In this document: piece after piece, positions 3,001 to 62,563 of the stretch
Numbering within the stretch: position 1 is the first letter of the stretch
Layout of the letters: each line of letters opens with the position of its first letter
Source: Macrosoma leucophasiata
Taxonomy: Eukaryota; Arthropoda; Insecta; Lepidoptera; Hedylidae
Reading direction: 5' to 3'
NCBI GenBank assembly: GCA_036365455.1
Contig: JAWQUS010000009.1
Span: forward strand, 2,696,001-2,760,000
Length of the DNA: 64,000 bases
Notes under the pieces: generated by a model
Databases searched by the model: none
Told to the model about the DNA's origin: nothing
Seen by the model: only the letters and a program-made list of their open reading frames with translations
Program-made: the position numbers and the translations under genes

Positions 3001-4441
3001 CTTATCGGTATTTTTTTTAATTACAATGTGCAACATTTTTTCATAAAAATAACAAATGTACACAGCTCCGTCTCTGAAATTTACCGTTGCCGATATTTTA
3101 TAATTGCAACAGGGAACTACTATCACTTCTTGACAAATTCATCAGGTATTATCAACAATGAGATTATACCTCCACCAATCCGCATCGGAGCAGCGTGGTG
3201 GAGTAAGCTCCAGGCCTCCTCCAAGAAGGGGAGAGACTCGTGCCCAGCAGTGGGACGTATCAAGAGTTGCCATCATTAACAAGATTATACAGGTGGTGGG
3301 TAGGTGAAGCCTGTCAGAGATTAGGCATCAGCAACCAGCCGCTACGGCGAATAAGGCTGCTAGGAGAGTAGTGGGCGGGCCTCGCTGCCGCATGCCGGCC
3401 GCGAGTGCGTTAGGTGCAGTGTGGCGAGGCGGCGGCCACCAGGCTCAGTAGCTAGGAGTCCGCAACCACGGCGTCGCGTTCTGTTTTCACTTGTTGCTGG
3501 AAAAAATATACATCAATGCTATTTACAAAGCTACTGGCTTCGGTGACAAAGTGGTTGCAAATCAAATTGCAGTCTTCGTGAATTCCGAGTCAACAATTTG
3601 TTATTGATATGAAATGAGAGCTAAAAATAAGCACTGCAAGGGCCAAAGGTGCGTGCGGTGTCGATCTTAGATTATTTGCTTCTGTGCCAGAAATAACGAA
3701 TCAAATATTACCTCCCATACACCATAGGGCTGAATGAGAGACGGGGTAACCAATATAGGATTTTTAATATCGTCAGGTTGAGTTATTTTTTAATTAGCAG
3801 ATAGGTATTCATTTATTACACCATCTATTTGCCGCTTAATTTTAATTAATTAAAAACAATTTTATTACTTTGAAATCCAAATTGACAAGTGTGGTGGTAT
3901 CTATAAATCTCGACCTCTGCCAACACTTGTAATGTATGGCAGATCAGTCGGTCAACCGAATTGCGCTAATCAAATATTTTGGAACGAAGTTCCTTATCGC
4001 GCGGTACGCTGGCTAAGGGGGCTACGCGAGCGTCTCGAAAAATCCTTACGACACTTTTGGTATAGTGCGAAGCGCTCGGAGAGGGGCAGGCCGAGTATAG
4101 GATTCGACTTATTCGTTCTCTCCCTCTCTCTCTCGACAGTGACGAACTACACGACGCACGCTGCTGTGTATGCGTTCAATATTTTGTCGTGTTCGTGTGT
4201 ATGTGGTTTAGTTATTTTTTAAAATAAACAATGGATCGTGAAAGTGATTCATTAGAAGTTGAAGAGGAACTTCTTTCCAATCGAGTGTCCCACATGTGAC
4301 ACCTCATGACAGTTTTTTAATACATAATTCCAATAGAGTGGCACTTAAATGCAATAACGCGGGACAAACAGCGTTCTGCTATAATGTCACAGCCGCGATC
4401 GCCATGCTGAGTGGTTTAATGATTACGACACACTTAACTTT
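1..4441. other. Flank without recognised gene
   Basis: This AT-rich stretch lies downstream of the ewg stop codon. I see no ORF with protein-family motifs. Positions 3171-3285 hold an antisense fragment of an interspersed repeat found again near 55800. Minus-strand AATAAA-type hexamers occur about 575 bases or more past the ewg stop, for example near 3861, but none is convincing as the gene's polyadenylation site. Part of the region may be ewg 3' UTR. Confidence 0.5.
3171..3285 (-). repeat. Lepidopteran-type interspersed repeat fragment
   Basis: The segment is the reverse complement of part of 55798-56140. Both share the motif CCACGCTGCTCCAATGCGG in forward or near-identical reverse form, followed by a 'cccactgctgggcac' motif. 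It is probably the remnant of a retrotransposon tail. No coding potential remains. Confidence 0.6.
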
Positions 4442-4699
4442 CTAGATGTTATCGATCTTTGAGGGAGGGAGGGAGGCTTTTGTCCGGCAGGAATGACGAT
4501 GATGGCATATGCAGAGGTATATTTCAGTCTCGGGTGAAGAGCGGCGCGTGTGATGCGGTACCATGGCCTTGGTGAGCACGGTGGCGTCCTTGAGGCTGAG
4601 CACCTGCAGCACCTGCGCGTCGCCGCCGCCCTGCAGCATGACCTGCGCCACGCCGCCGCCCATCGACAGCGCCTCCAGCGTCTCGCCGTTCTGCTCCAC
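4442..4699 (-). CDS. ewg: ewg last coding exon (3' end uncertain)
   Basis: After acceptor tgtgcag it encodes VEQNGETLEALSMGGGVAQV, MLQGGGDAQVLQVLSLKDAT and VLTKAM. It then reads through a less protein-like tail to TAG at 4442. A GT at 4561-4560 right after the last Met codon could be a donor to a further exon outside or near the window edge. The first 46 codons are well supported by GC content and Gln/Val/Leu-rich character. The rest is uncertain. Confidence 0.7.
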   Translation of the reverse strand: MEQNGETLEALSMGGGVAQVMLQGGGDAQVLQVLSLKDATVLTKAMVPHHTRRSSPETEIYLCICHHRHSCRTKASLPPSKIDNI

Positions 4700-7600
4700 C
4701 TGCACACCTCACGTCTCACTCTACCTGACCACCTCACGTCTCACTCTACCTGCCCTTCGTCAGACCACACCGGTCTGCAAACCTACACCTGCGCGCGACA
4801 GCCTGACTTCCCATTTGTCCTAATTTAATCTTTCTGTGCTTTCGTACCGCGTAAGAGAGCAATAGCATCGACAACCGGCAAAAAAATAAAAGACACAAAC
4901 GAGGACAAAAGAGACTAAGTTATGCCGTCGAACCCCTGCTGTTTTGTTGTATGTACTTGTAAACTTTTGCTAATCGGTAGGTCATCCAAAAACATTGAAA
5001 ATTAGACTTTAATACCGTAAAAACGAGGTACCGAAGAGTCAGACCGACCTTTCTTCGATAGATTTGAATGCAGCTTTACACAGTTTAGTCGGAGAATACG
5101 TAATAATACTACATATAGAATGGACAATGGACACTTCCGACGTCCCGCCCGATTTGCCTGCATCACTCAACCCCTTCCCCTCTTATGGGTGACGGTTGGT
5201 ATTTTGTAGGTGCGCATGTAAATACACGTCACTGATTGATGTCTGTGTAATAGAAACCAAATTAAACGTTTGTATGGAATTTTGGCGGAGTGTCCGCGGT
5301 GTGGTTTAGTAGAATATCTCCTTTCAATAAAATTAGCTACATTTAATTTACACTTTAAATTCTAACTTTCAAATAAAACAGACAGGCAAATTCTACAAAA
5401 AAAAAATACAAAAGAAGAAAAACAACTTATTATATAAATATTAAGAGCATTATCCACGAATCACGACGTAAGACAGAAATCTCAATCAGTTGGAAAACTA
5501 CTAAATTATACTGTACCTACATAATAATCAAACGTGTTCGTCATTTTGACGTATTTTATAGCAGCAGAATATTTGGCAGCGCCACGGAGTTTAATTTGTT
5601 CATCGGAAATATCGTGATACGTGGAATGCTGACAATTAAAAAAATAAAGAAAACAAATACACACCTGGCTAGAGCGACACAACGTGCATTGCAACTCAAA
5701 CAAGCTCGTAATAAAACACACAAAAACAATACATCACACGTTTATTGCACGCAAAAGACAGCAAGCATTTTTCACTACTGCATATTTATGTAGAGATCAC
5801 AACTTTAATACTTAATAAACAAAGACCTAAACCTTGTTAATATCAACAAGGTTTTTCAATTGTTTTATAAAAATTAATAGGAATTTGTTCATCACGAAAT
5901 TCAATGCAAAATAAAAACTATGTCTGGAATCATGACATTCTCGTGAAAGCGACAAACACACATACACATTATTGATAAGGGACCGTCCATAAAATACTTC
6001 ACGCTAAAATAAGCCTTTTCCGACGCCCTCCCCCCTATTGTCACGCCGTGTCACACTATCTGTGACCTCCCTAAAATATTACGTCACAAAAACAAAGACC
6101 CTATGCCTTTTCCGATCCCTTCCCCCTATTGTCACGCTCTCTGTGACCCGCCAAATATATAACGGCACAAAAACTAAGACCTCCCACCCTGAATATATCA
6201 TTTTTTAATTCAGGAATAATCTAACAAAATATTAATTTAAAAAAAAAATGGAACTGCGAACGTCTCGTTGCCGTGTACTACCCCTCCCTTTTTTTTAATG
6301 TAATAATAGTGGGAACAAGCATGCAGTTTACATTGATGGTAAGTGATGACTGCAGCCTATAGACACCCACACAATGACCAGAGGTTAAAATGCAGATGCG
6401 TTGCCACTCCTGAGGCTTAAGGTGTTATGTCTCTGTGCCGGAAATTAGAGGGCCATATATTACCACCTGACCGGAACAGATAGTGCAGAACACTACCATT
6501 TAGCGGCAAGTATATTAGGTAATGCGGTGGTGCCTTCGCCCGCGAGCTTTGTCACTGGAGCTCTACCACCCTTCTGTCACATTTCGTCACGTTCAGTGAA
6601 ACCCCTCCCCCCTTGTATGCGAACGTACCTTACGGACGGCCCCTAAGTGCACACACATGTTCTACACATCATAACATAAAGAGATCAGTGCCGATATGTA
6701 GCCACTCCTGGCGCCTTAGACATTTTGCCTCTGTGCAGCAACAATCAAAGTAAATTTACTCATCACACACATTTTAATACCCGAGTCGTTGCGTGATATT
6801 ATTTTCGATTTTTTATCGCAAACAGTTTCGCTTAACGACCCGGTGTTAAAATGTGTGTGATGAATGTTAAACGTTATAATGTAACACTCGACGAAATAAT
6901 AGAATTCAGCAAAGAATTTTAAAAAATACGAATTAAAGTTCATGTGTGTGTGTGTTATTTCAATATTTTAGTGCAATAACGATAGGCAACATTAAAAAAG
7001 GATATTTTTTTATATAAATTATTTAACAATACTATCAGGTCACTGAAGTTCATGCATGTGAAGTCAATAAAAATTCAAGGGATTGTTTATTTTTACAGTT
7101 TCTGTTTAGTTTACAACGGGGCTCTACACAATAGATCTATTATTTTAGATAAAACAAGAAAAAACGGAATTGGGCAGAATTTTAACTGACTAAACTTAAA
7201 ATTAAAAACACATAAGTAAAATATAAAAAAGCAATAACAACTAGGAGCTTATAGTAAAACAAATGGCAATCAAGCATTGGGAAATCTCTCGTCTGATCCA
7301 CATTGATAACAACATTGTGTAGTTATTTCTTGATAATTATTTAAAATGAACTTAACCTAATTCAAATAATATTATGGTAATTGCCAACGTAAATGAAAAT
7401 TATAACTTGTGGTGCAAACATATCTCACAAACAATTTTATTTCATTGAAATTTTATTATTTTTAGACGAGAGATTTCATTTGGTAAATTAAAAACAAAAT
7501 TAAAATTTATTATTTTTCGCCTATCAAACATTAAAGACTAGGAAGGCGAGCTTTCGATAACATAACATAAGCCACACAAGCTAAGATCGTGTGAATAATA

Positions 7601-10600: not shown

Positions 10601-13600
10601 AAGGCGCGCCTACGGCTCTACGTAAGAATCGATTCTGCAAAGTTTGAAGCTTATGTAATATTGTGTTTTTCGCGTGGGCGAATACCGGGGACGCGTAACA
10701 TAGTATGGGCCTTATGCAGGACGTATAGGCACGGAGTTTGTTCCGGGCCGATAGCTTGCTCTTTTTGTTTAATAAACAATGTAATTGGGACAACACGAAT
10801 GCAGCCTTTGCGCGCGCTGCTTTTACATGTGCTAGCGAAGGTCAGATGCCGATCAAGCGTCACTCCTAAGTATTTGATTTTGTCCATCCAGGGGATAGGC
10901 TCGTGAAACATAAGGACTGGGGCTACGTTAGGTCTGGGAGCGCGGTCCCGTAGCAACACACAGGAGGTTTGTAAATTTCTTAAACATACAATTCCCTCCC
11001 AGGGTCGGTACTTTCGAGAGTTGGCAAGCCCAGGGCTGCTACAGCCTATCTGTATTGCTGCTGACATTGTCAGCTGTCATATTTTTATGTCGATTTGTAG
11101 CTCCTTAAAAAGTAGTATTGATAATCTGATTGATATTCTCGTTTTCGTAGGTGATAAGCAAGCGATAATGGTAGATTATTTCGATTATTGTTTTTTTTTT
11201 TTTTATTATTATGGCATCGCTAATACGCATATTGCCAGTGTCAAGTAAAACGATATTTCGTATTTATTTAAGCAGCGTCAAAGTTAGTATAATAGGTAAG
11301 TATCAAGTATAATATGTCAGTCAAGTGAGTTACAGTCAAGTTATTCGAGTAGAGCGACGGCTACGTTACCAGAACATTTACAATGAAGTTTTGGAGGCAA
11401 CCTGAAAGGTCGTGTTTTCGCACTGTTATTCTATTTCACTATACACGGGCACTGTAATAAACCTATATCAAACAAAAGGCCACCAACTTTATTCAATATA
11501 ACTTAAAAATACACCAAGAAAATGAAATAAAATAAGAGCACCATACGCCTCTTACAAGGTTCCCGCCAAAACTCCGTCGATTATTGTTATTCAGTTAAAG
11601 TAAAAATCGACTTTAAAATTTGACAGCAATGACAATGACGACAGCAATTTCGATAGGCGGTCGCACCCTTCGGCGTCGGGTCGGCGGCGTACCGTGTCCG
11701 TCCTCGCCGGTGAGTATGAGCTGTCCGTCGTGGTTGAGCGTGGCCTCGGCGACGGCGTTGAGGTCGACGGCGACGGCCGACTCGCCGTCGATGGTCTGCA
11801 CCACGCTGCTGCCGCCCTCGCCGCTGTGGATCTGAACGTACACGGCACTTGTACTGCACGATCTGCTTTAACTAATATTTATCGAGATACCACCTCTGCC
11901 AAAACGACGTGTGACGAATTTCTCGCTTCCCTTCAAAATGGTCGAGGAGAGTAATTATTTGAAAATTTTAATTTGATTAATAATTATTATTACTCCAAGT
12001 AATTCGCTATAGGAAGTTTGTAAACTGACAATGCAAAAGTGTCCTTGTAGACCAATTTGAAATAAAATATTTGAGATTGAGTTTAATAGTAGTAACAAAC
12101 GTCCGGATTTGGTACGGAGCGGACCGCGGATTCTGTACGCTCCGAAACAAATTTGGCCGTGAGTCCGGGAGTTTGGGAGTCCGGCGGACATAATGGGGAC
12201 GATGACTAGTTCTTTTTTTATTGTAATTACAAAAATACAATAAATATTGTATTTGAAACGTCTATTCAATAGCTTATGATTTTAAAGATATAACGCTTTT
12301 TTTTTTAATATTTTATGGAAGTGGCAAACAAGCATGCAGTTCACATTGATGTTAAGTGATGACTGCAGCCTATAGACACCCACATGAAGGCCAAGGCCAA
12401 AATGCAGATGCGTTACCACCCCTGAGGCCTAAGGTGTTTTGCCTCTGTGTCGGAAATTACAGGGCCGTACATTACCACCTGACCGGAACACGATAGTGCT
12501 GAACACCATTTAGCGGTAAGTAAATTAGGTAAGGCGGTGGTGCCTACGCCCGCGAGCTCCGTCACTGGAGCTCTACCACCAGTGACGCTTTTAAAAACCT
12601 TGCGAGTTTTTTTATTCGCGTTTTTCCTCAATATTAATAACGGTAGCAGATAGACGCTTAAATTTTTACAGAATATTAAGTTGTCTTGTTCTGTGACCTT
12701 TCATATTAAATAAAAATTAAATAAAAATAAAGTAAATACTAAAGGAATAATACTATACAACAAACGGCAAATTTTTAAGCAATATTTTTGTACGGAACCA
12801 TTCGTGCGCGAGTCCGCCTCGCAAAAGGCCGGTTTTTTATCAACAAAACGACGTTCGGTTAACTTCTCATAAGGTGAAAAGTGAAGATGTAACAGAAAAC
12901 AGAGCAATAACCTGGAAGTGACTCAACGTAACTTATTATTTACTCTAGACTGGAAGAACTAAGCCTGGGATGCACCGCGATATAATCATGTTAGTGTTGT
13001 AACATTTCACATCCTTCTCTCACTTTAACAGATTTTTTGAAGTTAGAGAAGGATGTGAAATGTAATGAAATGTTACAATAACTTCAACAAATATCTTGGT
13101 GCAACCCAGGCTAAGTTCCTTTTGTTTCTAATTAAATAGTGTTTTATTTATACGCACGACTTGCGCGGTGGTGCCGTCGGGCAGCGTGATGATGGGGCTG
13201 TTGGGGTCGACCTGGATGAGCGACACGGTGCCGTCCGGGTTCGTGATGGTCTGCAGCACGGCCGGCGCGTACCCCGACATCTGCACGTTCAATATTTATC
13301 CATATTATTTTATTACATATGATATCCGGTATCCAGCTTGTCCTAATATTCGGCCGGATACGGGATAATAATTGTCAGTGTCCAGTATCCGGCGCCGGTC
13401 TTGTAGCTCGCCGAATATCCGATATCCGACTAACCCACTATCCGTTTTATCTCATTCTCATTTTCAATTGAAACTTCAAACTGTCTCACCGAGTATATCG
13501 ATATAGTGAGTGAAAGAAAATAAAAATAACAAATATACATTAAATGCTCGGTAAGCAAGCACGTACTTCACGCCTATTGTACTGTGTTAAGTTCTCTTTT

Positions 13601-16600
13601 CTGTATTTCTTTTTTTTTTAATGTAATAAAAGTGGCAAACAAGCATGCAGTTCACATTGATGTTAAGTTATGACTGCAGCCTATAGACACCCACACAATG
13701 ACCAGAGTTGAAAATGCAGATGCGCTGCCACTCCTGAGGCATTAGGTGATATGCCTCTGTGCCTGAAATTACAGGGCCGTACATTACCACCTGACCGGAA
13801 CACGCAAGTATATTAGGTAATGCGGTGGTGCCTATGCCCGCGAGCTCCGTCACTGGAGCTCTACCACCAGTAGGTGGTAGTAGTCTTATAGTGTTATATC
13901 TGGTGTACAATAAAATGTATTGTTGTTGTACTTTCTAGGTCGATACAAACCTCTCATACGTCTTTAAAACAAATTAGGTAAGATCTTATCTTTAAGTATA
14001 CACGGAGATGCAGGTTGCAACAACTCAATCTTATCTTTGTATAATAAATAGATACTAATTCATATTATTATTCCGGCAAAATGATTTAGTAAACCACGAT
14101 CACTAGATCTGCGATTTCAGGTCTCGTTCCTGACCGGGTAAGTAGTAATTTTAGATTCTCGTCCATCAAACGGTCGTTTCTATTCCACTCAACACTGAGT
14201 AAGCCAACATAGAAAATACAGAACAACTCGCCACCGGCTGGCAGTTGAAAAGTATGGAATGTCGTACATCGACATCGGCGAGCGTCATCTGGTCGATGCA
14301 GACTTGTTGCGACGTGAGCACGGCGGGCGCCGAGTGGTGCGACCGCGACCCGCCGCCGCCTCCGCCCCCGCCCCCGCTGCCGCTCGAGCTGCCGGCCGGC
14401 ATGCACGCCGATATCTAATGTTCCCGTAGAATACGAGAGTCGATCGATTCCACGACCAGATCGAAATGCGATTGATTTATCGATCGGTAGAACGCGACCC
14501 GATCCAGTAAGCGCGGTCCGATGGTTGATTTGTTGTTCCCCGGTCGAGGCGCGAGTTAAATATACCGACGATCGCATCGCGAATGTCATGACACATCACA
14601 ATAGTGAAATCGTAAACGGGCATACGAGTTACCAGATCCGAGGCAGCAGTCCGAATGGAGGCGTACACAAAAAAATAATTCATATTTAGACTAATAAAAC
14701 AATCTTTCATTTTTAATTAAGCCAAGCTAAACATTGATATTTCAAACGGAGCCCATACCCATGACATGTGTGTTAATGCGATTCAATTAAAGAATAATTT
14801 AAAAATTTAATAAGTAAAGGGTATGTGAATGTATGTTTACTATTAGGGAGCAACTGAGGTTGATGCGATGGAAAAGTTTCGTCGCATTTGATCCACTTTA
14901 CATTGGGTGAACTTTTGACATTGAGAGCTTTAGATTTTTATATATAAATTCATAGGACACTTTATAAAATGCATAGTGGACCAAATGCGAAAAGTACTAA
15001 GAGCGAAGTGGACCAAATGAGAAAAGAACTTAAGTGCGAAGTGGACCAAATGTGCCAAACGTGATGAAGATTAAGACACTCTTTTGATTATTCTTAGATG
15101 TACGTGGAAAAGAGGGTGAGTACAGAGTGTACGAGGCTGGGTGAGATGTATACTGACGGGCTGCGTGGGCGGGCCCTTGTCGTCGTCCTCGGTGAAGGCG
15201 GGCAGCAGGTCCTCGCGGCCGTGGTACTTGTAGCAGTTGATCACGATCTGCCGCAGCGCGTGGGTCCACGACATCTGCGCGGGCGACCATCGTAAACATT
15301 AATGCTGGGTTGCCCCAGGGACGTGCAATGTTACGATAACTTTAGCTTTTACAAATATCTTGATGCAACCAGGCTAAGGTTCGGTTGCGTCAAAACATTT
15401 GTTAAAATTACGATTAAATGTAACAATTACAGTATTCAATATTGCCCGTTGAACTTAGGAGACTTCGGTTTATTTTGGGTCTGTAGAGCGTTATCTATTT
15501 TGCACCTTACCTAAGTGACGTTTGTCGACCATTTTGATCGAGTTTTTAGCAATGCCGCACTATCAGTGCTTACGTAGGCAGCGTGCAGCAGAGATACGCT
15601 CCACGAGGTCGAAACTAGGCGATAGTGTCTTCCGTAGAGTGCATGTGCAACGTGTCTCGTCCCGCTGGGTACCTTCTGCTTCTCGTCCTCGGTGCGCGCG
15701 TCCATGCGCACGTTGGCCCACGGCAGGTCCTTGGGCCACCACGGCGGCCGCGTCGACTCGCGGCCCCAGCCCGGCTTGCCGCGCACTGACCACAGATATG
15801 TCACTCTTTGTAATGCAAAAATAACATGTACTATTTATTTTTCGCAAGTGAACTTTAGAAATTAAAGAAAAAAAGGAAAGAAAAAATGTTGACTTCGGCC
15901 TGGAATCGAACCTGCGACTTCAGGATAACCAAAGCGGCTGGACTGATTATCCTGAGGTCGCAGGTTCGATTCCTGCAAGAAGTCAAAATTTTTCTTTCCG
16001 TTTTCTTTTTTTTTTCTTTCTGTTCCAAAAATAACATGTTTATTTCAAACTAGCTCATAATTCCCGTTCCCGTGAGGGTTACTGGCAATGCGCTCTATCC
16101 TCTTCTTCTTTTTAATGTTTTGGAAGTGGCAAACAAGCATGCAGTTCACATTGATGTTAAGTGATGAAAGGCATGTCTCGACCAGTTCGCTAGTAATTTT
16201 AAATCGAATATTTCTGCCGCAGTGCACTATGTAGGTCTTTCAGACCACGAAACTGCTCAATCTCTAAGTATAAAAATTAATAGAAAACGTGAAATAATCA
16301 GTTGGTTTGAGAATGCTAGAGATTTTAACAGAGAAAATAAAAGATTATTCTATAAGTGTATATCTTCTTTATCCTTTTCAGAAGTTTATGATAAAAGTGA
16401 TAGTAATGAATCATTTGAAGAATTTTATAACACATTTTTACTGTTTTTTAATTTATGTTTTCCGATAATTAATGTTAAAAAAACAAATAAAAAAAGTAAC
16501 AGAACTTGGCTAACTGTTGATTTAAGAAAATGTTGTGTAAAAAAAAGGTATCTTTACCTAAAATACATACAAAATCGGCATAATAAAACATCAAATAAAC

Positions 16601-19600
16601 AAAACTACAAAAATTACGATAAAATACTCAAAAAATGTTTACAAAAAGCACGACAAATACAAAACAAAAAATACATTGACAATAAAAAAAAACAAATGTA
16701 AAGCTGTATGGGAAACAATAAATAAGAATATTGGTGAAACAAATAGGAGTTCTGAAATCGACAAAATATTATTTAATGACCAAACATATACTGATCCAGT
16801 TGACATTAGTAAAATATTTAATGACTTTTATATTAATTTGACTAATGAGAATAATTTTACTTATAATGTAAATGACATCAATAAATCTGTAAATGTATGC
16901 AATACGAATTCGATATTCTTAAAACCAACTGACTCTATGGAAATATATAAAATTATGAATAATCTTAAAAATACGAAATCGGTAGGGATTGATGGTATTA
17001 ACATAGACTCTTTGAAATTATGTGCTGAATATATTAGTGAACCCTTGAGCTTCATTATAAATAAATCACTCGAGGAAGGTTCATATCCAAATATATTAAA
17101 AAAGTCAATAGTAAAACCACTTTTTTAAAAAGGAGATGCGTCAGATGTTATTGATTATCGTCCAGTTATTTTGATTCCAATATTATCAAAAATATTTGAA
17201 AAGGTTAATGTTTAAAAGACTTTTCGATTTTGTTACTAAAAAGAGAACAATTCGGTATTTAGTTCTACTTCACTAGCATGTTTTGATTTGATGAAAACAA
17301 TAACAGAAGCAATTAATGATAACAAAGCAATCGCAGCAGTGTTTCTGGATATGAGCAAAGCGTTTGATTTTGTGGACCATAAGCTACTTTTATATAAGTT
17401 AGATAAATACGGCATCAGGGGTATTGCTAACCAATGGATCAAAAGCTATCTATCTGTCAGATCGAACTCAATGTGTTGAAATAGCAAAAAATGTAAATGG
17501 ATATAAAATTTTTAGTCAATCTGATTTCAGAGCAAATAACTTTGGCGTGCCACAAGGAAGTGTTATTGGGCCGTTACTGTTTTTAATGAATATAAATGAT
17601 TTACCAAATGTCACGCTCCACAAAACCGTATTATTTGCAGAAGACACTACGCTCATAGTGAAATGTGACGATTTAAATACATACCGAAAAAAGATTAACG
17701 AAGCTCTTGATAGTATAATTACGTGGTTAAAAACTAATAATCTTAAAATGAATATCAATAAAACTAATTTAATTCAATTTCAGACATATATAAAAAAACA
17801 CATTGACCTCAATATAATTCATGATAAAAATAAAATTAATGAAGTTGACTCCACAAAGTTCTTAGGGCTAGTTGTGGATAAAAATTGTGACTGGAAAGTT
17901 CACATTGACTTTGTTTGCGACAAACTGAATATATTTGTATTTGCTATAAAGCGATTGCGTCAAATTGTTTCGACAGAAGCAGCCTTGATTGCATACCATG
18001 GCTATGTCTCCTCTGTGCTTCCTTATGGCCTCTTGTTATGGGGAAACTCGGTGGTAATTGATAAAGTTTTTCGTGTACAAAAAAATGTGTAAGAGCTATT
18101 TGTGGAGCTTGGTGCTTGGACAGTTGTAGGCCATTATTCCAGAAATATCGTATATTACCGTTGGCTTGCATATACATTAGGGATCTCTGTGTATTTGTAA
18201 AGCAGCATCCATACTATTTTAAGCTCAATTCTGAATGTACGAATAGGAACGTTAGCGTAAGGAATCAATTTAAACTGTTCATATCTAAATGTAGAATTGA
18301 ATTACATAAAAGGAATGCTTTTGTAAACGCCATAAGGGTTTTATTTTTAAAGAAAAATGGAAAGAAAAATTTGACTTCAGGCGAGGCTCGAACTCGCGAC
18401 CTACTGGGAATCTAGTCCAGCCGCTCTTCCAATTGAGCTACTGAAGCCCTGCCCGATTTGTCGAATCTTTCCTTCACATCTATTGCATTGCTTTATGGTA
18501 GCAGTAGCGCCATCTATTACCAACTATGCTAGTTAGGCAACCGATATAATAGACTTTTCAGTTTATTGAATATCGTAAAGAAGTCGCTTTTACCCTTAAT
18601 AATTGTTTGATATTATTTCGCATTAACACATGCTTGTGAAATATATTTTATTTTTAAAGAAAAATGGAAAGAAAAATTTGACTTCAGGCGAGGCTCGAAC
18701 TCGCGACCTACTGGGAATCTAGTCCAGCCGCTCTTCCAATTGAGCTACTGAAGCCCTGCCCGATTTGTCGAATCTTTCCTTCACATCTATTGCATTGCTT
18801 TATGGTAGCAGTAGCGCCATCTGTTACCAACTATGCTAGTTAGGCAACCGATATAATAGACTTTTCAGTTTATTGAATATCGTAAAGAAGTCGCTTTTAC
18901 CCTTAATAATTGTTTGATATTATTTCGCATTAACACATGCTTGTGAAATATATTTTATTTTTAAAGAAAAATGGAAAGAAAAATTTGACTTCAGGCGAGG
19001 CTCGAACTCGCGACCTACTGGGAATCTAGTCCAGCCGCTCTTCCAATTGAGCTACTGAAGCCCTGCCCGATTTGTCGAATCTTTCCTTCACATCTATTGC
19101 ATTGCTTTATGGTAGCAGTAGCGCCATCTATTACCAACTATGCTAGTTAGGCAACCGATATAATAGACTTTTCAGTTTATTGAATATCGTAAAGAAGTCG
19201 CTTTTACCCTTAATAATTGTTTGATATTATTTCGCATTAACACATGCTTGTGAAATATATTTTATTTTTAAAGAAAAATGGAAAGAAAAATTTGACTTCA
19301 GGCGAGGCTCGAACTCGCGACCTACTGGGAATCTAGTCCAGCCGCTCTTCCAATTGAGCTACTGAAGCCCTGCCCGATTTGTCGAATCTTTCCTTCACAT
19401 CTATTGCATTGCTTTATGGTAGCAGTAGCGCCATCTATTACCAACTATGCTAGTTAGGCAACCGATATAATAGACTTTTCAGTTTATTGAATATCGTAAA
19501 GAAGTCGCTTTTACCCTTAATAATTGTTTGATATTATTTCGCATTAACACATGCTTGTGAAATATATTTTATTTTTAAAGAAAAATGGAAAGAAAAATTT

Positions 19601-22600
19601 GACTTCAGGCGAGGCTCGAACTCGCGACCTACTGGGAATCTAGTCCAGCCGCTCTTCCAATTGAGCTACTGAAGCCCTGCCCGATTTGTCGAATCTTTCC
19701 TTCACATCTATTGCATTGCTTTATGGTAGCAGTAGCGCCATCTATTACCAACTATGCTAGTTAGGCAACCGATATAATAGACTTTTCAGTTTATTGAATA
19801 TCGTAAAGAAGTCGCTTTTACCCTTAATAATTGTTTGATATTATTTCGCATTAACACATGCTTGTGAAATATATTTTATTTTTAAAGAAAAATGGAAAGA
19901 AAAATTTGACTTCAGGCGAGGCTCGAACTCGCGACCTACTGGGAATCTAGTCCAGCCGCTCTTCCAATTGAGCTACTGAAGCCCTGCCCGATTTGTCGAA
20001 TCTTTCCTTCACATCTATTGCATTGCTTTATGGTAGCAGTAGCGCCATCTATTACCAACTATGCTAGTTAGGCAACCGATATAATAGACTTTTCAGTTTA
20101 TTGAATATCGTAAAGAAGTCGCTTTTACCCTTAATAATTGTTTGATATTATTTCGCATTAACACATGCTTGTGAAATATATTTTATTTTTAAAGAAAAAT
20201 GGAAAGAAAAATTTGACTTCAGGCGAGGCTCGAACTCGCGACCTACTGGGAATCTAGTCCAGCCGCTCTTCCAATTGAGCTACTGAAGCCCTGCCCGATT
20301 TGTCGAATCTTTCCTTCACATCTATTGCATTGCTTTATGGTAGCAGTAGCGCCATCTATTACCAACTATGCTAGTTAGGCAACCGATATAATAGACTTTT
20401 CAGTTTATTGAATATCGTAAAGAAGTCGCTTTTACCCTTAATAATTGTTTGATATTATTTCGCATTAACACATGCTTGTGAAATATATTTTATTTTTAAA
20501 GAAAAATGGAAAGAAAAATTTGACTTCAGGCGAGGCTCGAACTCGCGACCTACTGGGAATCTAGTCCAGCCGCTCTTCCAATTGAGCTACTGAAGCCCTG
20601 CCCGATTTGTCGAATCTTTCCTTCACATCTATTGCATTGCTTTATGGTAGCAGTAGCGCCATCTATTACCAACTATGCTAGTTAGGCAACCGATATAATA
20701 GACTTTTCAGTTTATTGAATATCGTAAAGAAGTCGCTTTTACCCTTAATAATTGTTTGATATTATTTCGCATTAACACATGCTTGTGAAATATATTTTAT
20801 TTTTAAAGAAAAATGGAAAGAAAAATTTGACTTCAGGCGAGGCTCGAACTCGCGACCTACTGGGAATCTAGTCCAGCCGCTCTTCCAATTGAGCTACTGA
20901 AGCCCTGCCCGATTTGTCGAATCTTTCCTTCACATCTATTGCATTGCTTTATGGTAGCAGTAGCGCCATCTATTACCAACTATGCTAGTTAGGCAACCGA
21001 TATAATAGACTTTTCAGTTTATTGAATATCGTAAAGAAGTCGCTTTTACCCTTAATAATTGTTTGATATTATTTCGCATTAACACATGCTTGTGAAATAT
21101 ATTTTATTTTTAAAGAAAAATGGAAAGAAAAATTTGACTTCAGGCGAGGCTCGAACTCGCGACCTACTGGGAATCTAGTCCAGCCGCTCTTCCAATTGAG
21201 CTACTGAAGCCCTGCCCGATTTGTCGAATCTTTCCTTCACATCTATTGCATTGCTTTATGGTAGCAGTAGCGCCATCTATTACCAACTATGCTAGTTAGG
21301 CAACCGATATAATAGACTTTTCAGTTTATTGAATATCGTAAAGAAGTCGCTTTTACCCTTAATAATTGTTTGATATTATTTCGCATTAACACATGCTTGT
21401 GAAATATATTTTATTTTTAAAGAAAAATGGAAAGAAAAATTTGACTTCAGGCGAGGCTCGAACTCGCGACCTACTGGGAATCTAGTCCAGCCGCTCTTCC
21501 AATTGAGCTACTGAAGCCCTGCCCGATTTGTCGAATCTTTCCTTCACATCTATTGCATTGCTTTATGGTAGCAGTAGCGCCATCTATTACCAACTATGCT
21601 AGTTAGGCAACCGATATAATAGACTTTTCAGTTTATTGAATATCGTAAAGAAGTCGCTTTTACCCTTAATAATTGTTTGATATTATTTCGCATTAACACA
21701 TGCTTGTGAAATATATTTTATTTTTAAAGAAAAATGGAAAGAAAAATTTGACTTCAGGCGAGGCTCGAACTCGCGACCTACTGGGAATCTAGTCCAGCCG
21801 CTCTTCCAATTGAGCTACTGAAGCCCTGCCCGATTTGTCGAATCTTTCCTTCACATCTATTGCATTGCTTTATGGTAGCAGTAGCGCCATCTATTACCAA
21901 CTATGCTAGTTAGGCAACCGATATAATAGACTTTTCAGTTTATTGAATATCGTAAAGAAGTCGCTTTTACCCTTAATAATTGTTTGATATTATTTCGCAT
22001 TAACACATGCTTGTGAAATATATTTTATTTTTAAAGAAAAATGGAAAGAAAAATTTGACTTCAGGCGAGGCTCGAACTCGCGACCTACTGGGAATCTAGT
22101 CCAGCCGCTCTTCCAATTGAGCTACTGAAGCCCTGCCCGATTTGTCGAATCTTTCCTTCACATCTATTGCATTGCTTTATGGTAGCAGTAGCGCCATCTA
22201 TTACCAACTATGCTAGTTAGGCAACCGATATAATAGACTTTTCAGTTTATTGAATATCGTAAAGAAGTCGCTTTTACCCTTAATAATTGTTTGATATTAT
22301 TTCGCATTAACACATGCTTGTGAAATATATTTTATTTTTAAAGAAAAATGGAAAGAAAAATTTGACTTCAGGCGAGGCTCGAACTCGCGACCTACTGGGA
22401 ATCTAGTCCAGCCGCTCTTCCAATTGAGCTACTGAAGCCCTGCCCGATTTGTCGAATCTTTCCTTCACATCTATTGCATTGCTTTATGGTAGCAGTAGCG
22501 CCATCTATTACCAACTATGCTAGTTAGGCAACCGATATAATAGACTTTTCAGTTTATTGAATATCGTAAAGAAGTCGCTTTTACCCTTAATAATTGTTTG

Positions 22601-25600
22601 ATATTATTTCGCATTAACACATGCTTGTGAAATATATTTTATTTTTAAAGAAAAATGGAAAGAAAAATTTGACTTCAGGCGAGGCTCGAACTCGCGACCT
22701 ACTGGGAATCTAGTCCAGCCGCTCTTCCAATTGAGCTACTGAAGCCCTGCCCGATTTGTCGAATCTTTCCTTCACATCTATTGCATTGCTTTATGGTAGC
22801 AGTAGCGCCATCTATTACCAACTATGCTAGTTAGGCAACCGATATAATAGACTTTTCAGTTTATTGAATATCGTAAAGAAGTCGCTTTTACCCTTAATAA
22901 TTGTTTGATATTATTTCGCATTAACACATGCTTGTGAAATATATTTTATTTTTAAAGAAAAATGGAAAGAAAAATTTGACTTCAGGCGAGGCTCGAACTC
23001 GCGACCTACTGGGAATCTAGTCCAGCCGCTCTTCCAATTGAGCTACTGAAGCCCTGCCCGATTTGTCGAATCTTTCCTTCACATCTATTGCATTGCTTTA
23101 TGGTAGCAGTAGCGCCATCTATTACCAACTATGCTAGTTAGGCAACCGATATAATAGACTTTTCAGTTTATTGAATATCGTAAAGAAGTCGCTTTTACCC
23201 TTAATAATTGTTTGATATTATTTCGCATTAACACATGCTTGTGAAATATATTTTATTTTTAAAGAAAAATGGAAAGAAAAATTTGACTTCAGGCGAGGCT
23301 CGAACTCGCGACCTACTGGGAATCTAGTCCAGCCGCTCTTCCAATTGAGCTACTGAAGCCCTGCCCGATTTGTCGAATCTTTCCTTCACATCTATTGCAT
23401 TGCTTTATGGTAGCAGTAGCGCCATCTATTACCAACTATGCTATATCGGTTGCCTAACTAGCATAGTTGGTAATAGATGGCGCTACTGCTACCATAAAGC
23501 AATGCAATAGATGTGAAGGAAAGATTCGACAAATCGGGCAGGGCTTCAGTAGCTCAATTGGAAGAGCGGCTGGACTAGATTCCCAGTAGGTCGCGAGTTC
23601 GAGCCTCGCCTGAAGTCAAATTTTTCTTTCCATTTTTCTTTAAAAATAAAATATATTTCACAAGCATGTGTTAATGCGAAATAATATCAAACAATTATTA
23701 AGGGTAAAAGCGACTTCTTTACGATATTCAATAAACTGAAAAGTCTATTATATCGGTTGCCTAACTAGCATAGTTGGTAATAGATGGCGCTACTGCTACC
23801 ATAAAGCAATGCAATAGATGTGAAGGAAAGATTCGACAAATCGGGCAGGGCTTCAGTAGCTCAATTGGAAGAGCGGCTGGACTAGATTCCCAGTAGGTCG
23901 CGAGTTCGAGCCTCGCCTGAAGTCAAATTTTTCTTTCCATTTTTCTTTAAAAATAAAATATATTTCACAAGCATGTGTTAATGCGAAATAATATCAAACA
24001 ATTATTAAGGGTAAAAGCGACTTCTTTACGATATTCAATAAACTGAAAAGTCTATTATATCGGTTGCCTAACTAGCATAGTTGGTAATAGATGGCGCTAC
24101 TGCTACCATAAAGCAATGCAATAGATGTGAAGGAAAGATTCGACAAATCGGGCAGGGCTTCAGTAGCTCAATTGGAAGAGCGGCTGGACTAGATTCCCAG
24201 TAGGTCGCGAGTTCGAGCCTCGCCTGAAGTCAAATTTTTCTTTCCATTTTTCTTTAAAAATAAAATATATTTCACAAGCATGTGTTAATGCGAAATAATA
24301 TCAAACAATTATTAAGGGTAAAAGCGACTTCTTTACGATATTCAATAAACTGAAAAGTCTATTATATCGGTTGCCTAACTAGCATAGTTGGTAATAGATG
24401 GCGCTACTGCTACCATAAAGCAATGCAATAGATGTGAAGGAAAGATTCGACAAATCGGGCAGGGCTTCAGTAGCTCAATTGGAAGAGCGGCTGGACTAGA
24501 TTCCCAGTAGGTCGCGAGTTCGAGCCTCGCCTGAAGTCAAATTTTTCTTTCCATTTTTCTTTAAAAATAAAATATATTTCACAAGCATGTGTTAATGCGA
24601 AATAATATCAAACAATTATTAAGGGTAAAAGCGACTTCTTTACGATATTCAATAAACTGAAAAGTCTATTATATCGGTTGCCTAACTAGCATAGTTGGTA
24701 ATAGATGGCGCTACTGCTACCATAAAGCAATGCAATAGATGTGAAGGAAAGATTCGACAAATCGGGCAGGGCTTCAGTAGCTCAATTGGAAGAGCGGCTG
24801 GACTAGATTCCCAGTAGGTCGCGAGTTCGAGCCTCGCCTGAAGTCAAATTTTTCTTTCCATTTTTCTTTAAAAATAAAATATATTTCACAAGCATGTGTT
24901 AATGCGAAATAATATCAAACAATTATTAAGGGTAAAAGCGACTTCTTTACGATATTCAATAAACTGAAAAGTCTATTATATCGGTTGCCTAACTAGCATA
25001 GTTGGTAATAGATGGCGCTACTGCTACCATAAAGCAATGCAATAGATGTGAAGGAAAGATTCGACAAATCGGGCAGGGCTTCAGTAGCTCAATTGGAAGA
25101 GCGGCTGGACTAGATTCCCAGTAGGTCGCGAGTTCGAGCCTCGCCTGAAGTCAAATTTTTCTTTCCATTTTTCTTTAAAAATAAAATATATTTCACAAGC
25201 ATGTGTTAATGCGAAATAATATCAAACAATTATTAAGGGTAAAAGCGACTTCTTTACGATATTCAATAAACTGAAAAGTCTATTATATCGGTTGCCTAAC
25301 TAGCATAGTTGGTAATAGATGGCGCTACTGCTACCATAAAGCAATGCAATAGATGTGAAGGAAAGATTCGACAAATCGGGCAGGGCTTCAGTAGCTCAAT
25401 TGGAAGAGCGGCTGGACTAGATTCCCAGTAGGTCGCGAGTTCGAGCCTCGCCTGAAGTCAAATTTTTCTTTCCATTTTTCTTTAAAAATAAAATATATTT
25501 CACAAGCATGTGTTAATGCGAAATAATATCAAACAATTATTAAGGGTAAAAGCGACTTCTTTACGATATTCAATAAACTGAAAAGTCTATTATATCGGTT

Positions 25601-28600
25601 GCCTAACTAGCATAGTTGGTAATAGATGGCGCTACTGCTACCATAAAGCAATGCAATAGATGTGAAGGAAAGATTCGACAAATCGGGCAGGGCTTCAGTA
25701 GCTCAATTGGAAGAGCGGCTGGACTAGATTCCCAGTAGGTCGCGAGTTCGAGCCTCGCCTGAAGTCAAATTTTTCTTTCCATTTTTCTTTAAAAATAAAA
25801 TATATTTCACAAGCATGTGTTAATGCGAAATAATATCAAACAATTATTAAGGGTAAAAGCGACTTCTTTACGATATTCAATAAACTGAAAAGTCTATTAT
25901 ATCGGTTGCCTAACTAGCATAGTTGGTAATAGATGGCGCTACTGCTACCATAAAGCAATGCAATAGATGTGAAGGAAAGATTCGACAAATCGGGCAGGGC
26001 TTCAGTAGCTCAATTGGAAGAGCGGCTGGACTAGATTCCCAGTAGGTCGCGAGTTCGAGCCTCGCCTGAAGTCAAATTTTTCTTTCCATTTTTCTTTAAA
26101 AATAAAATATATTTCACAAGCATGTGTTAATGCGAAATAATATCAAACAATTATTAAGGGTAAAAGCGACTTCTTTACGATATTCAATAAACTGAAAAGT
26201 CTATTATATCGGTTGCCTAACTAGCATAGTTGGTAATAGATGGCGCTACTGCTACCATAAAGCAATGCAATAGATGTGAAGGAAAGATTCGACAAATCGG
26301 GCAGGGCTTCAGTAGCTCAATTGGAAGAGCGGCTGGACTAGATTCCCAGTAGGTCGCGAGTTCGAGCCTCGCCTGAAGTCAAATTTTTCTTTCCATTTTT
26401 CTTTAAAAATAAAATATATTTCACAAGCATGTGTTAATGCGAAATAATATCAAACAATTATTAAGGGTAAAAGCGACTTCTTTACGATATTCAATAAACT
26501 GAAAAGTCTATTATATCGGTTGCCTAACTAGCATAGTTGGTAATAGATGGCGCTACTGCTACCATAAAGCAATGCAATAGATGTGAAGGAAAGATTCGAC
26601 AAATCGGGCAGGGCTTCAGTAGCTCAATTGGAAGAGCGGCTGGACTAGATTCCCAGTAGGTCGCGAGTTCGAGCCTCGCCTGAAGTCAAATTTTTCTTTC
26701 CATTTTTCTTTAAAAATAAAATATATTTCACAAGCATGTGTTAATGCGAAATAATATCAAACAATTATTAAGGGTAAAAGCGACTTCTTTACGATATTCA
26801 ATAAACTGAAAAGTCTATTATATCGGTTGCCTAACTAGCATAGTTGGTAATAGATGGCGCTACTGCTACCATAAAGCAATGCAATAGATGTGAAGGAAAG
26901 ATTCGACAAATCGGGCAGGGCTTCAGTAGCTCAATTGGAAGAGCGGCTGGACTAGATTCCCAGTAGGTCGCGAGTTCGAGCCTCGCCTGAAGTCAAATTT
27001 TTCTTTCCATTTTTCTTTAAAAATAAAATATATTTCACAAGCATGTGTTAATGCGAAATAATATCAAACAGCCATAAGGGTTTTTAATAAATTACCCATT
27101 ACGCTCAAGGAAATACGTTTACCACTAATTAAAAACAAACTGACTGGCTACAACATAATTGTTTTTATGACTTAAATGAATACATGACGTCATATAAAGC
27201 AATATCCTAATTAATTGAATAATGTTTGATCTAATCATCTGACCTGAATTTTAATTTTGACATATCTAAATTATTTTAATTACCCAATTCCGTTTACCTA
27301 ATTAATGACATATTATTTATAAATTTTTCACTGATTAAAAAATATTTATAAATGTGTAACAGAATGATAATAAGATATTAAGTAATAAGATATAATAAGA
27401 TTTTTGATTATGATTATGATGACTGCAGCCTATAGACACTTACACAAAGACCAAGGTCAAAATGCAGATGCGTTACCACTCCTGAAGCCTAAGGTGTTCT
27501 GCCTCTGTGCCGGAACACGATAGTGCTGAACACTACCATTTAGCGGCAAGTATATTAGGTAATGCGGTGGTGCCTATTCCCGCAAGGCACCATCACTGGA
27601 GCTCTACCACCACTAGAATCCATCATCATCCCTGAAAGTCTTTGAAGACCCCACATGCCAGAGATTCTTGGTGATATTTATACGATAATGGAAATTGCCA
27701 TGATTCTTTTAGATTTCTATGATGTCTATAGGCTGCAGTCGTCACTTAACATCCATCTAAACTGCATGCCTATTTCCAACCTTCATTACATAAAAAAGCG
27801 AATTAACTGTCCATACAGGACATAATTTCCAGCTCAGGCATCCTCGAAAGTGATAACGCTTCTAAATTCAGACCATATTTTATATACAGATGTTTAAAGC
27901 CAGGATTTTCACTTACCAGCAATGCGAGCTGCATGTTCGTTTGGCCTTTTCAAGTGTTTGTTTTTTTTTTGTCAAAAAAATGGCGGAAAGCGCAACACTC
28001 ACCCATGGAGTACTTGAGCATGAGCGGGATGAAGGCCCGCAGCTGGGCCTGCGTCATCTTCTTGACGGGCGTGGGGACGCCGGCGCCAGGCGAAGGGCGG
28101 AGGGCGCAACACTCACCCATGGAGTACTTGAGCATGAGCGGGATGAAGGCGCGCAGCTGGGCCTGCGTCATCTTCTCGACGGGCGTGGCGACGCCGGCGC
28201 CAGGCGAAGGGCGAAGGGCGAAGGGCGGAGGGCGGAGGGCGCAACACTCACCCATGGAGTACTTGAGCATGAGCGGGATGAAGGCGCGCAGCTGGGCCTG
28301 CGTCATCTTCTCGACGGGCGTGGGGATGCCGTCGATGATGAGGGGGGGCAGCTCGAACAGCGACGGGTCGTCGGCCGGCGGCGGCGGCGCCTGCGGGCAA
28401 CCGCCCAGCCCGAACTGACGCTCGTTATTTACTCCTACTCTACGCTTATACTACGGTACGCGCCGCGAGGTGTCCTCTTTGACTTTTATAAGACTATGTT
28501 CTTACAATATTTCACTAACGGGAGAGGACATTGTAAGGTGTGTTTATATGTGGCCTTCCCCTCACCCCCCTCCGAAAAAAAATGGTCATTTTGTTCCACT

Positions 28601-37525: not shown

Positions 37526-37860
37526 TGGTTTCCCCTCTGCAGCCACCTTGGAAGCTGCTACTATTCACCCGTTCAACTTTAAGTACTTGTTTCTCTTTGG
37601 CTTATTTGTTTAGCTGTTAAATCAAAGTATGAAATCAATTTTAGGAAATGAGAATAAATAAAATTCAATGTTTAGCATTATAAAGAACATTTTGGCAAAT
37701 ATGGTAGTAACAATTTTATGTGTTTTAAATTATTTTGCTAGGCAAAAGCAGTTTTAGCATTCAACAAGTGAACTTTTGAAAATAAGGTTCAATTCAATCA
37801 TCAACTGACTTGTTAATGTTATGGTTTTTGTCAAATTTTACAATGACAAATTCCCTATTT

Positions 37861-38030
37861 TTTATTTTTAAAGAAAAATGGAAAGAAAAATTTGACTTCA
37901 GACGAGACTCGAACTCGCCTGAAGTCAAAATCAGAGTTCGAGTCTCGTCTGAAGTCAAATTTTTCTTTCCATTTTTCTTTAAAAATAAAATATATTTTAC
38001 AAGCATGTGTTAATGCGAAATAATATAAAA
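37861..38030. mobile_element. Inverted tRNA-like retroelement, minimal copy
   Basis: It is flanked by a 15-bp duplication acaaattccctattt (37846-37860 and 38031-38045). At 170 bp it keeps only the two ends: ttatttttaaagaaaaatgg with the complement of the tRNA-like 3' end, then that same end forward and the common tail to gcgaaataatataaaa. The central part of both arms is deleted. It sits upstream of ewg coding exon 1. Confidence 0.88.
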
Positions 38031-38045
38031 ACAAATTCCCTATTT

Positions 38046-41940: not shown

Positions 41941-42045
41941 ACATTTCAGTCCAGAATGTCAAATGGTTTCAAAATGTCAAATTCCTGGAATTCCAAATTT
42001 CGGGAACTTGACATTTTGAATTTGACATTCTGGACTGAAACATGT
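41941..42045. repeat. Hairpin palindrome of about 105 bp
   Basis: The outer arms catttcagtccagaatgtca and its complement near 42043 pair, and the inner arms caaaatgtcaaattcc pair with gacattttga. The result is a long imperfect stem. It could be a tiny MITE or a foldback; the length would also suit a hairpin RNA. Confidence 0.7.
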
Positions 42046-61279: not shown

Positions 61280-62563
61280 CGAGGATGGATCCAAAAGTTC
61301 GTGGCCCAAACTACAAGGAGACATGACATCTTTTTTAATTTACCGTCATGTCTTCTATTGATTTATTGTGCGCAGTTTCATTCCGATACTTAACAATATA
61401 CATTTTCTGTGATTATTTGTTTGAAGCATTCTGACGCGATTTTCAATAATGGAGAAAATTGAATATCGTGCAGTCATTAAGTACCTCAATAAAAAAGGCC
61501 TGTCACCAAAAGACATCCATCAAGATATGGTGGGCACTTTGGGGGAGTCTGCTCCATCGTATTCCAGTGTCAAGAAGTGGGTAGCTGAGTTTAAGCGCGG
61601 TCGTGAGAGCATTGAAGATGATCCTAGGAGTGGACGGCCTACAACCTCTACCACGAAAGAAAAAAAATCGATAAAATTTGTGATCTCGTACTGGGTGATC
61701 GACGTTTGACCATCGGTAAGATAGCTGAGACAACAGACATTAGTTATGGCCGGGTGCAACACATAATAACGAAAGAATTGGGATTCCATAAGGTTTCTGA
61801 TCGCTGGGTCCCGAGGTTGCTTTCAGCTGAACAAAACCGAGTTCGATTCACAATTTCGCGAGACTGTTTGGAACTTTTTGAGACTGATCCCGAGGACTTT
61901 TTGTCTAGATTTGTTACCATGGATGAAAGCTGGGTTCACCATCATATTCCTGAATCAAAGCAACAATCCAAACAGTGGAAAAGATCTGACTCACCTACAC
62001 CGAAAAAGGCTAAAGTCGTTTTGTCGACTAACAAAGTCATGGCTTCTGTTTTTTGGGATGCGAAGGGCATTATTTTTGTAGATTATTTACCGAAAGGTCA
62101 GACTATTAATTCTAGATATTATTGTAACCTTTTACGAAGACTACGAGAAGAAATAAAAGAAAAAAGGCCGGGAATGTTGCGTAAGAAAGTTTTGTTCCAT
62201 CAAGACAATGCACGCGTTCACACTTCGGTTGAAACAATGTCTGTAATCCATGATTGTGGCTACGAATTGCTGCCCACACTTATTCGCAGTTTTTAGCCCC
62301 CTCAGATTATCATTTATTTCCAAATTTAAAAAAACATTTGGGTGGCTCGAAATTTTCGACCAAAGATGAGGTGATAGTCGCAGTAAACGAGTATTTCGCC
62401 GACCTTCCGGAATCTTTTTTTTTCGAGGGGATAAACAAGTTACAGTTCAGGTGGAAGAAGTGTGTTGAGCTAGATGGAGACTATGTCGAAAAATAAAAAT
62501 AAATTTAGACCCACTTTTCTTTCATTTTCTTGGTCGGGCTTCGAACTTTTGGATCCACCCTCG
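61280..62563 (+). mobile_element. mariner transposon 2, nearly full length
   Basis: It is 1284 bp between TA dinucleotides, with matching ends cgaggatggatccaaaagtt and, inverted, cgagggtggatccaaaagtt. The transposase (61449-62496) starts [20 protein letters not shown], with the HTH part, then WVHHHIPE after MDES (first Asp), LFHQDNARVHTS (second Asp) and LAPSDYHLFP (third Asp; DD34D). Two frameshifts break it: one at an A-run near 61665 and one near 62270. No other major damage is visible. Confidence 0.93.

Follow-up and report, generated by a model that had tools for sequence, protein, structure and literature searches.

Short interspersed nuclear elements (SINEs) derived from tRNAs carry a tRNA-like core with A and B boxes, are flanked by target duplications, and occur as monomers or direct dimers starting from near the tRNA 5′ end. 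In the twin priming of long interspersed nuclear element 1 (LINE-1), two target ends prime on one RNA, and the inverted complementary DNAs (cDNAs) are joined by short overlaps; this is a minority event that uses a linear RNA and has a variable second start. Here we describe a family of mobile elements in the lepidopteran Macrosoma leucophasiata (Hedylidae), built of 307-bp units with a tRNA-like core that commonly stand in two head-to-head arms. The analysis starts from one large array in a 64,000-nucleotide stretch of assembly GCA_036365455.1 (contig JAWQUS010000009.1, positions 2,696,001 to 2,760,000 of the forward strand), hereafter the window.

The nearest known kind of element is the animal retrozyme. 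Animal retrozymes without long terminal repeats (LTRs) consist of ~300-bp AT-rich tandem units, in a coral ranging from dimers to 62-mers; their target duplications, when present, are >4 bp, and their multimers have been proposed to come from reverse-transcribed small RNA circles (PMC7229834, PMC7761336). No conserved motif is described from which their enzyme could be deduced (PMC7761336). Low-GC tandem units of ~150-450 bp, from dimers up, characterize retrozymes and are also found here (305-313 bp, GC 0.37, arms of up to 22.8 units). Each retrozyme unit carries a type I hammerhead, whereas we found neither this nor another known ribozyme; the family described here instead has a tRNA-like domain, two head-to-head arms, and two preferred starts, and one retrozyme paper makes no mention of "inverted" in its main text (PMC7229834). 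The SMalpha and W elements of Schistosoma are alike in being SINE-like, satellite-like repeats, one of them of 335 bp, but SMalpha carries a type I hammerhead, and "head-to-head" is absent from the main text of that report (PMC8490949). Helenus terminal-repeat retrotransposons in miniature (TRIMs) are likewise small with tRNA-like sequence, and have an LTR pair, a primer-binding site, a polypurine tract, and a 4-5 bp target duplication (PMC10886601). In the main text of a paper on lepidopteran SINEs, "tandem," "head-to-head," and "circular" do not appear, and "inverted" and "dimer" occur in its reference list only, the latter in a title on a dimeric twin SINE of a mosquito (PMC8010984). In a literature search, beyond whose reach lay most subscription papers and Repbase, no title or abstract opening among the papers listed described a head-to-head circular-RNA SINE.

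The window array and its repeat unit

The window array consists of 17 tRNA-like units on the minus strand followed by 12 on the plus strand, with a unit of 307 bp (ARAGORN, Tandem Repeats Finder). Tandem Repeats Finder reports two 307-bp arrays, at 18339-23443 (16.6 copies, 99% matches) and 23442-27070 (11.8 copies, 100% matches), and ARAGORN labels the tRNA-like genes tRNA-Ser, anticodon aga. The insert, 18343-27070, lies between two copies of a 14-bp direct repeat. When the flanks are joined, for reading only, a single LINE reading frame spans the insertion site, with a reverse transcriptase domain upstream of it, within 17403-18092 (Pfam RVT_1, 5.8e-11). The first-pass annotation had proposed from the letters alone the head-to-head units, the 14-bp target duplication, and the insertion into a LINE open reading frame, and all three hold. 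Numbering the unit from U1 (ATTATTAAGGG...) to U307 (...AAACA), the features of the locus are:

17403-18342, plus strand: LINE reverse transcriptase reading frame hit by the array, resuming at 27085
18329-18342, plus strand: left copy of the target site duplication, GCCATAAGGGTTTT
18343-23443, minus strand: left arm of 16.6 units, running from an outer end in the A-rich start site (near U261-265) to an inner end at U73; sense of the tRNA-like domains leftward
23442-23443: palindrome centre, a two-base (TA) overlap of the arms
23442-27070, plus strand: right arm, 11.8 units; inner end at U56, outer end at U307; tRNA-like sense strand rightward
23542-23618, plus strand: one of 29 tRNA-like domains (ARAGORN, Rfam)
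27071-27084, plus strand: right copy of the target site duplication

A centre between the arms exists, as had been noted, but it is an asymmetric fold-back in which the arms overlap by 2 bp and not a 15-nt spacer. Over its 5,101 nt the left arm departs from the unit by a single substitution, and the right arm carries no substitution in 3,629 nt; the 26 full units together show one substitution, seen in one unit only. With its one target duplication, the locus therefore gives good support to the earlier proposal that the array was inserted as one event.

The tRNA-like core spans approximately U156-U231, ~155 nt precede it, and an A-rich stretch begins at U256. Rfam identifies the unit as tRNA (49.4 bits), and an A-box-like stretch is present at U164 and a B-box-like stretch at U209. 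The term tRNA-derived SINE thus fits the core but is incomplete for the unit, which extends on both sides of the core. Despite the tRNA-Ser label, the core resembles host tRNA-Tyr, the only tRNA compared, scoring 54, 51, and 45 with three genes (the best of 300 shuffles reached 29 with the first gene); the host has ten tRNA-Tyr gene matches, and the three that were read contain introns of 15-17 bases. A hairpin is predicted at U53-77 of the RNA (-11.6 kcal/mol), and in a predicted circular fold U262-264 and U302-307 are mostly unpaired, within both of the start regions described below.

The hammerhead core CTGATGA, with at most one mismatch, is absent from both strands of the window unit. Rfam searches up to E 10 on about three window units returned only tRNA and no ribozyme, and searches up to E 5 on four further loci listed no ribozyme family: the 31 matches given are mostly tRNA, and the rest are below family gathering scores. 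Matches to mir-28 (1.2e-7) and snR82 (4.1e-5) were rejected, as they too are below gathering scores and lie over the palindrome centre of locus L024, where any strong hairpin scores. Another tRNA-like stretch, at 47560-47650 of the window, has a B-box match on the minus strand and no inverted partner that we could see.

Copies of the family in the genome

Using blastn with the unit against the rest of the window, we found four further places, each with a minus arm followed by a plus arm. Three of these (35.5, 37.9, and 48.6 kb) belong to the same family, and the fourth, at 15.9 kb, is related but older. Direct repeats of 9 to 15 exact bases flank each of the five window copies. The further copies of the main family are:

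35464-35915: second copy; left arm 1.06 units (minus), right arm 0.42 unit (plus); target duplication ACAATCAGCATT at 35452-35463 and 35916-35927
37861-38030: third copy; arms of 0.21 and 0.32 unit; target duplication at 37846-37860 and 38031-38045
48594-48988: fourth copy; arms of 0.71 (minus) and 0.61 (plus) unit; target duplication of 17 bp with one mismatch (9 bp exact)

Across the genome (616 Mb, 61 contigs; G000), a 30-base tail pattern with at most one mismatch has 17,566 matches, and the same pattern read backwards has none; such counts cover the copies that retain the tail. Among the matches listed (100 exact tails on contig C1), we find 70 clusters in 4.98 Mb, equivalent by extrapolation to ~8,700 exact-tail loci genome-wide. 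Seven of the 70 clusters hold both strands, always minus then plus, and eight hold same-strand neighbours spaced by 298-308 bases, with one gap of 616. An exact tail search of viral contigs and prokaryote genomes gave no match. Copies of this mobile element number in the thousands, and the first-pass view of the window array as a singular oddity was wrong: the array belongs to the large members of a very abundant family, whose commoner form is the two-arm one.

We compared the anatomy of copies in two samples. One, biased toward arrays, derives from a 618-base array piece with 221 genome matches, from which 36 clusters were fetched among the matches listed; the other comprises 20 of the 32 loci listed for the 100-base tail of the 37.9-kb copy, and favours copies with that tail, though not arrays. 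We excluded from the counts the loci that are pieces of the window array (L001-L008) and matches under ~20-25 bp. The anatomy set thus contains 56 fetched loci and the four window copies; one of 50 two-arm copies was dropped since one end lies outside the locus. In the tail sample, 14 of 22 copies (two fragments, L054 and L056, excluded) have two arms, five are single arms ending at U305, and three are single arms ending at U259-269.

Adjacent arms are head-to-head (minus-plus) in 50 out of 52 cases, and the two plus-minus pairs both occur in the compound locus L022. In 44 of 49 two-arm copies, one outer end lies at U300 or more and the other at U240-280. Over all 118 arms (a few fragments and one cut arm included), 59 outer ends fall at U301-307, 52 at U241-280, and seven elsewhere; which type stands left and which right differs from locus to locus. 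By eye, the start on the U307 side continues into U1-U6 in several loci, for example L011 and L017. In locus L027 (G000:C19:10609368-10612600), the outer ends both lie near U266-269, one arm contains a 361-bp insert, and the target repeat does not adjoin the arms. Target repeats of 11-17 bp flank 43 of the 49 two-arm copies (one mismatch allowed from 12 bp, counted without a shuffled control). Such lengths agree with the duplications of >4 bp of retrozymes and differ from the 4-5 bp of Helenus, as the head-to-head order differs from its direct LTR pair. Arms range from 0.11 to 22.8 units, and 16 of the 46 arms in the tail-chosen loci and the window, a count that includes one fragment and one cut arm, are more than one unit long. 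Unlike in LINE-1 twin priming, the two-arm form is here the more frequent one and has a preferred second start; compared with tRNA-derived SINEs, two-arm and tandem forms occur, and the arms share no 5′ end.

Inner ends, by contrast with these outer ends, can lie anywhere in the unit. Only four of 118 fall at the unit boundary (3.8 expected), and since they do not pile up there we see no RNA 5′ end. There is an excess within U53-77: 19 of 72 typed inner ends, a value matched in 4 of 5,000 random scans, and 25 of 118 in the larger set (9.6 expected, for an interval picked after the data were seen). The 72 omit two of the three centres of L022 and the single arms L015 and L023 (six values, none in U53-77). 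Arm junctions show overlaps of up to 12 bases or up to 27 extra bases, and centres vary between copies. Letter variants and A-run length aside, each of the 263 unit joins captured with an anchor on either side shows one and the same junction, although large insertions or deletions would escape this test.

Units resemble each other far more within a locus than between loci. The 267 full units from 37 loci measure 305-313 bp, with a single length per locus in 32 of the 37; the length is 305-308 everywhere except in L020 and one odd unit of L031. Their mean difference within loci is 0.33 (1,206 of 1,664 pairs identical), as against 4.45 between loci with one unit taken per locus (40 of 666 identical). 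All units are identical in 15 of the 36 loci with at least two full units, and where both arms hold full units (15 loci), units of opposite arms are about as alike as units of the same arm. Among 59 variable columns inside loci, the odd letter is in one unit only in 56; the other three are a single A-run in L020 (G000:C25:21049400-21058900). In this locus, which has the 22.8-unit arm, the A-run varies from unit to unit in both arms, a pattern expected of repeated stuttering on a single template. In L038 (G000:C27:12433576-12436800), the unit at 1654 has six differences from the other two full units, three of them toward the family majority, suggesting a mixed template or conversion.

Possible routes of insertion

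In our reading, to which, judging from genomic sequence, we give a probability of roughly 0.68, a non-autonomous retroelement produced the window array in a single insertion, by twin-primed target-primed reverse transcription (TPRT) of a small RNA circle. A 307-nt unit RNA, in the sense of the tRNA-like domain, would be present as a closed circle or would act as one. An endonuclease, presumably LINE-encoded, would nick both target strands ~11-17 nt apart; one target 3′ end would prime on the A-rich stretch near U259-275 and the other near U305-U6, with ~40 nt between them. Each reverse transcriptase would then circle the template as far as its processivity allows, passing the unit boundary without trace and leaving more often at the strong hairpin near U53-77. 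Joining of the two cDNAs by their inner ends would give outward-facing arms of unequal length within one target duplication. Since the unit length stays nearly constant, circle formation would be expected to lose no bases, each unit being cut once and resealed once, as known animal retrozymes achieve with their hammerhead. A closed 307-nt RNA would explain the lack of a 5′ end, the starts that slide into U1-U6, the arms that cross one unit, and the likeness of units in a locus. The first-pass annotation had offered either in situ expansion or insertion of an already repeated template. The latter comes close, yet the data fit a one-unit circle read repeatedly better than they fit a repeated linear template or growth in place.

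Several observations weigh against this reading or limit it. The loci directly show where outer ends prefer to lie and that inner ends are free, as well as the head-to-head order, the target duplications, the constant joins, and the homogeneity of insertions; the circle is our interpretation of them, and much the same traces would be expected from a linear multimer or from circular single-stranded DNA. Five copies depart from the outer-end pairing, two in L022 and one each in L019, L032 (where an arm is split), and L038; L027, although counted among the 44, is doubtful because it ends at U266 and U269 if read through its insert. Eight of the 22 tail-sample copies have a single arm, and several of these lack a clear target duplication. 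Bases common to target and element confound the nick context, which is weak, and a 22.8-unit arm requires high processivity. L022 (G000:C13:8490590-8497900) contains, at 994-6819, three successive head-to-head palindromes separated by 37-bp gaps; its second centre mirrors the first (inner ends 116/97, then 97/116), an arrangement that looks like later rearrangement or strand switching. Neither a circularising signal nor a partner enzyme was identified for the family. The GIY-YIG profile PF01541 has one match in the genome, with an internal stop (the control was positive in 12 of 14 named genomes, and the model may miss diverged enzymes), and this does not speak for a Penelope-type partner.

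Variation inside loci also indicates that the use of a single template is not strict. Substitutions found in one unit match the majority allele of another locus in 15 of 50 cases (2.7 expected; maximum 11 in 2,000 draws). When the family majority is treated as the ancestral state, six of the 45 variable columns in 31 loci (those with at least three units) have a non-family letter in two or more units but not in all, and four of these six are in both arms (three columns in L038, one in L018). L029, L038, and L044 are as variable inside as loci are between each other. Either a second template or later conversion between copies must therefore play a part occasionally.

The columns with a non-family letter in both arms of L038 and L018 are what one would expect if twin-primed TPRT had instead used a linear multimeric RNA, transcribed from an existing array, in which case no circle would be necessary. 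Homogeneous arrays would yield homogeneous transcripts, and start sites and arm order would be equally well explained. However, if both arms were copied from one RNA with almost identical starts, variants specific to a unit would often be expected in both, and this is seen in only two of 15 loci, L018 and L038, apart from the A-run of L020; in those two, one changed unit is the simpler reading. We consider such a template unlikely. Linear 307-nt monomers joined by end-to-end template jumps, known for the R2 reverse transcriptase, would account for the preferred start near U307, for tandem units, and for the occasional unit of foreign source, but fit poorly with the uniform joins, with starts that run past U307 into U1-U6 (by eye), and with the lack of inner ends at the boundary. 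Jumping among transcripts of different loci should, moreover, mix unit types far more than observed, and this route is improbable. The same starts at U1-U6 weaken the candidate of a linear RNA with its 3′ end at U307.

Growth of units in place, by unequal exchange or slippage after a short twin-primed insertion, would equally produce homogeneous arrays within one target duplication. Odd letters limited to one unit in 56 of the 59 columns argue against it (with a caveat as to polarity), as do arm lengths that run from a fraction of a unit to many units; both arms would also need to expand and yet stay alike, so that we hold this explanation, too, to be improbable. Palindromes and arrays are classic trouble spots of assembly, and a DNA circle could be integrated by end joining, but dozens of loci show this architecture, every one with a target duplication of its own, and neither an artefact nor end joining leads one to expect preferred starts and a near-exclusive head-to-head order; this is the most improbable of the alternatives. 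Two further candidates were rejected as unlikely: a palindromic master element, since letters track the copy and not the side (partly by eye) and centres differ between copies, and snap-back cDNA, since one arm reaches ~40-50 nt past the start of the other.

Older relatives, neighbouring features, and implications

The copy at 15.9 kb represents an older family:

15830-16025: older related copy with similar two-arm architecture; target duplication CAAAAATAACATGT at 15816-15829 and 16026-16039

At least 82 matches to this family are listed, with 1,828 first-look candidates in the genome. Its tRNA-like core is different from, though related to, that of the main family. By eye, ten fetched copies have one long tail end, the other end near a T/A-rich stretch, and short arms; target repeats are present in several of the ten but not all. 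The centres differ in detail, and several copies have nearly the same inner end (by eye). Independent twin priming is therefore less certain in this family than in the main one, and a palindromic master element is less clearly rejected.

Other local palindromes in the window (53790-53929, 41944-42040, 12956-13118, and 6760-6863) have no obvious tRNA-like sequence and are probably inverted-repeat DNA elements. A tandem repeat of ~130/252 bp (6.5 copies, 45296-46120) is unrelated to the array, and a 114-bp direct duplication at 27982-28220 has open reading frames on both strands. Transposase-like reading frames lie at 61628-62296 and 51006-51392 (Pfam Transposase_1; weak DDE_3).

As for how a lossless circle of this kind could be made, RtcB is reported to close retrozyme RNAs in vitro (PMC7229834), and by analogy we guess at the tRNA-splicing enzymes. 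The family may then represent a lineage in which a tRNA-like domain takes the place of a ribozyme, the host tRNA-splicing endonuclease and ligase acting once per unit, and in which insertion is by rule through two simultaneous reverse transcriptions from both target ends; we propose this only tentatively and think it doubtful. If reverse transcription on a small circle is the correct reading, thousands of loci would provide genomic evidence that reverse transcriptase can run around a small circular template at the target site itself, with the starts on both strands visible. Start sites and nick context are readable here, unlike in animal retrozymes, where the enzyme cannot be deduced from motifs. 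A single insertion would then yield, in one step, a homogeneous satellite-like array and a large palindrome.

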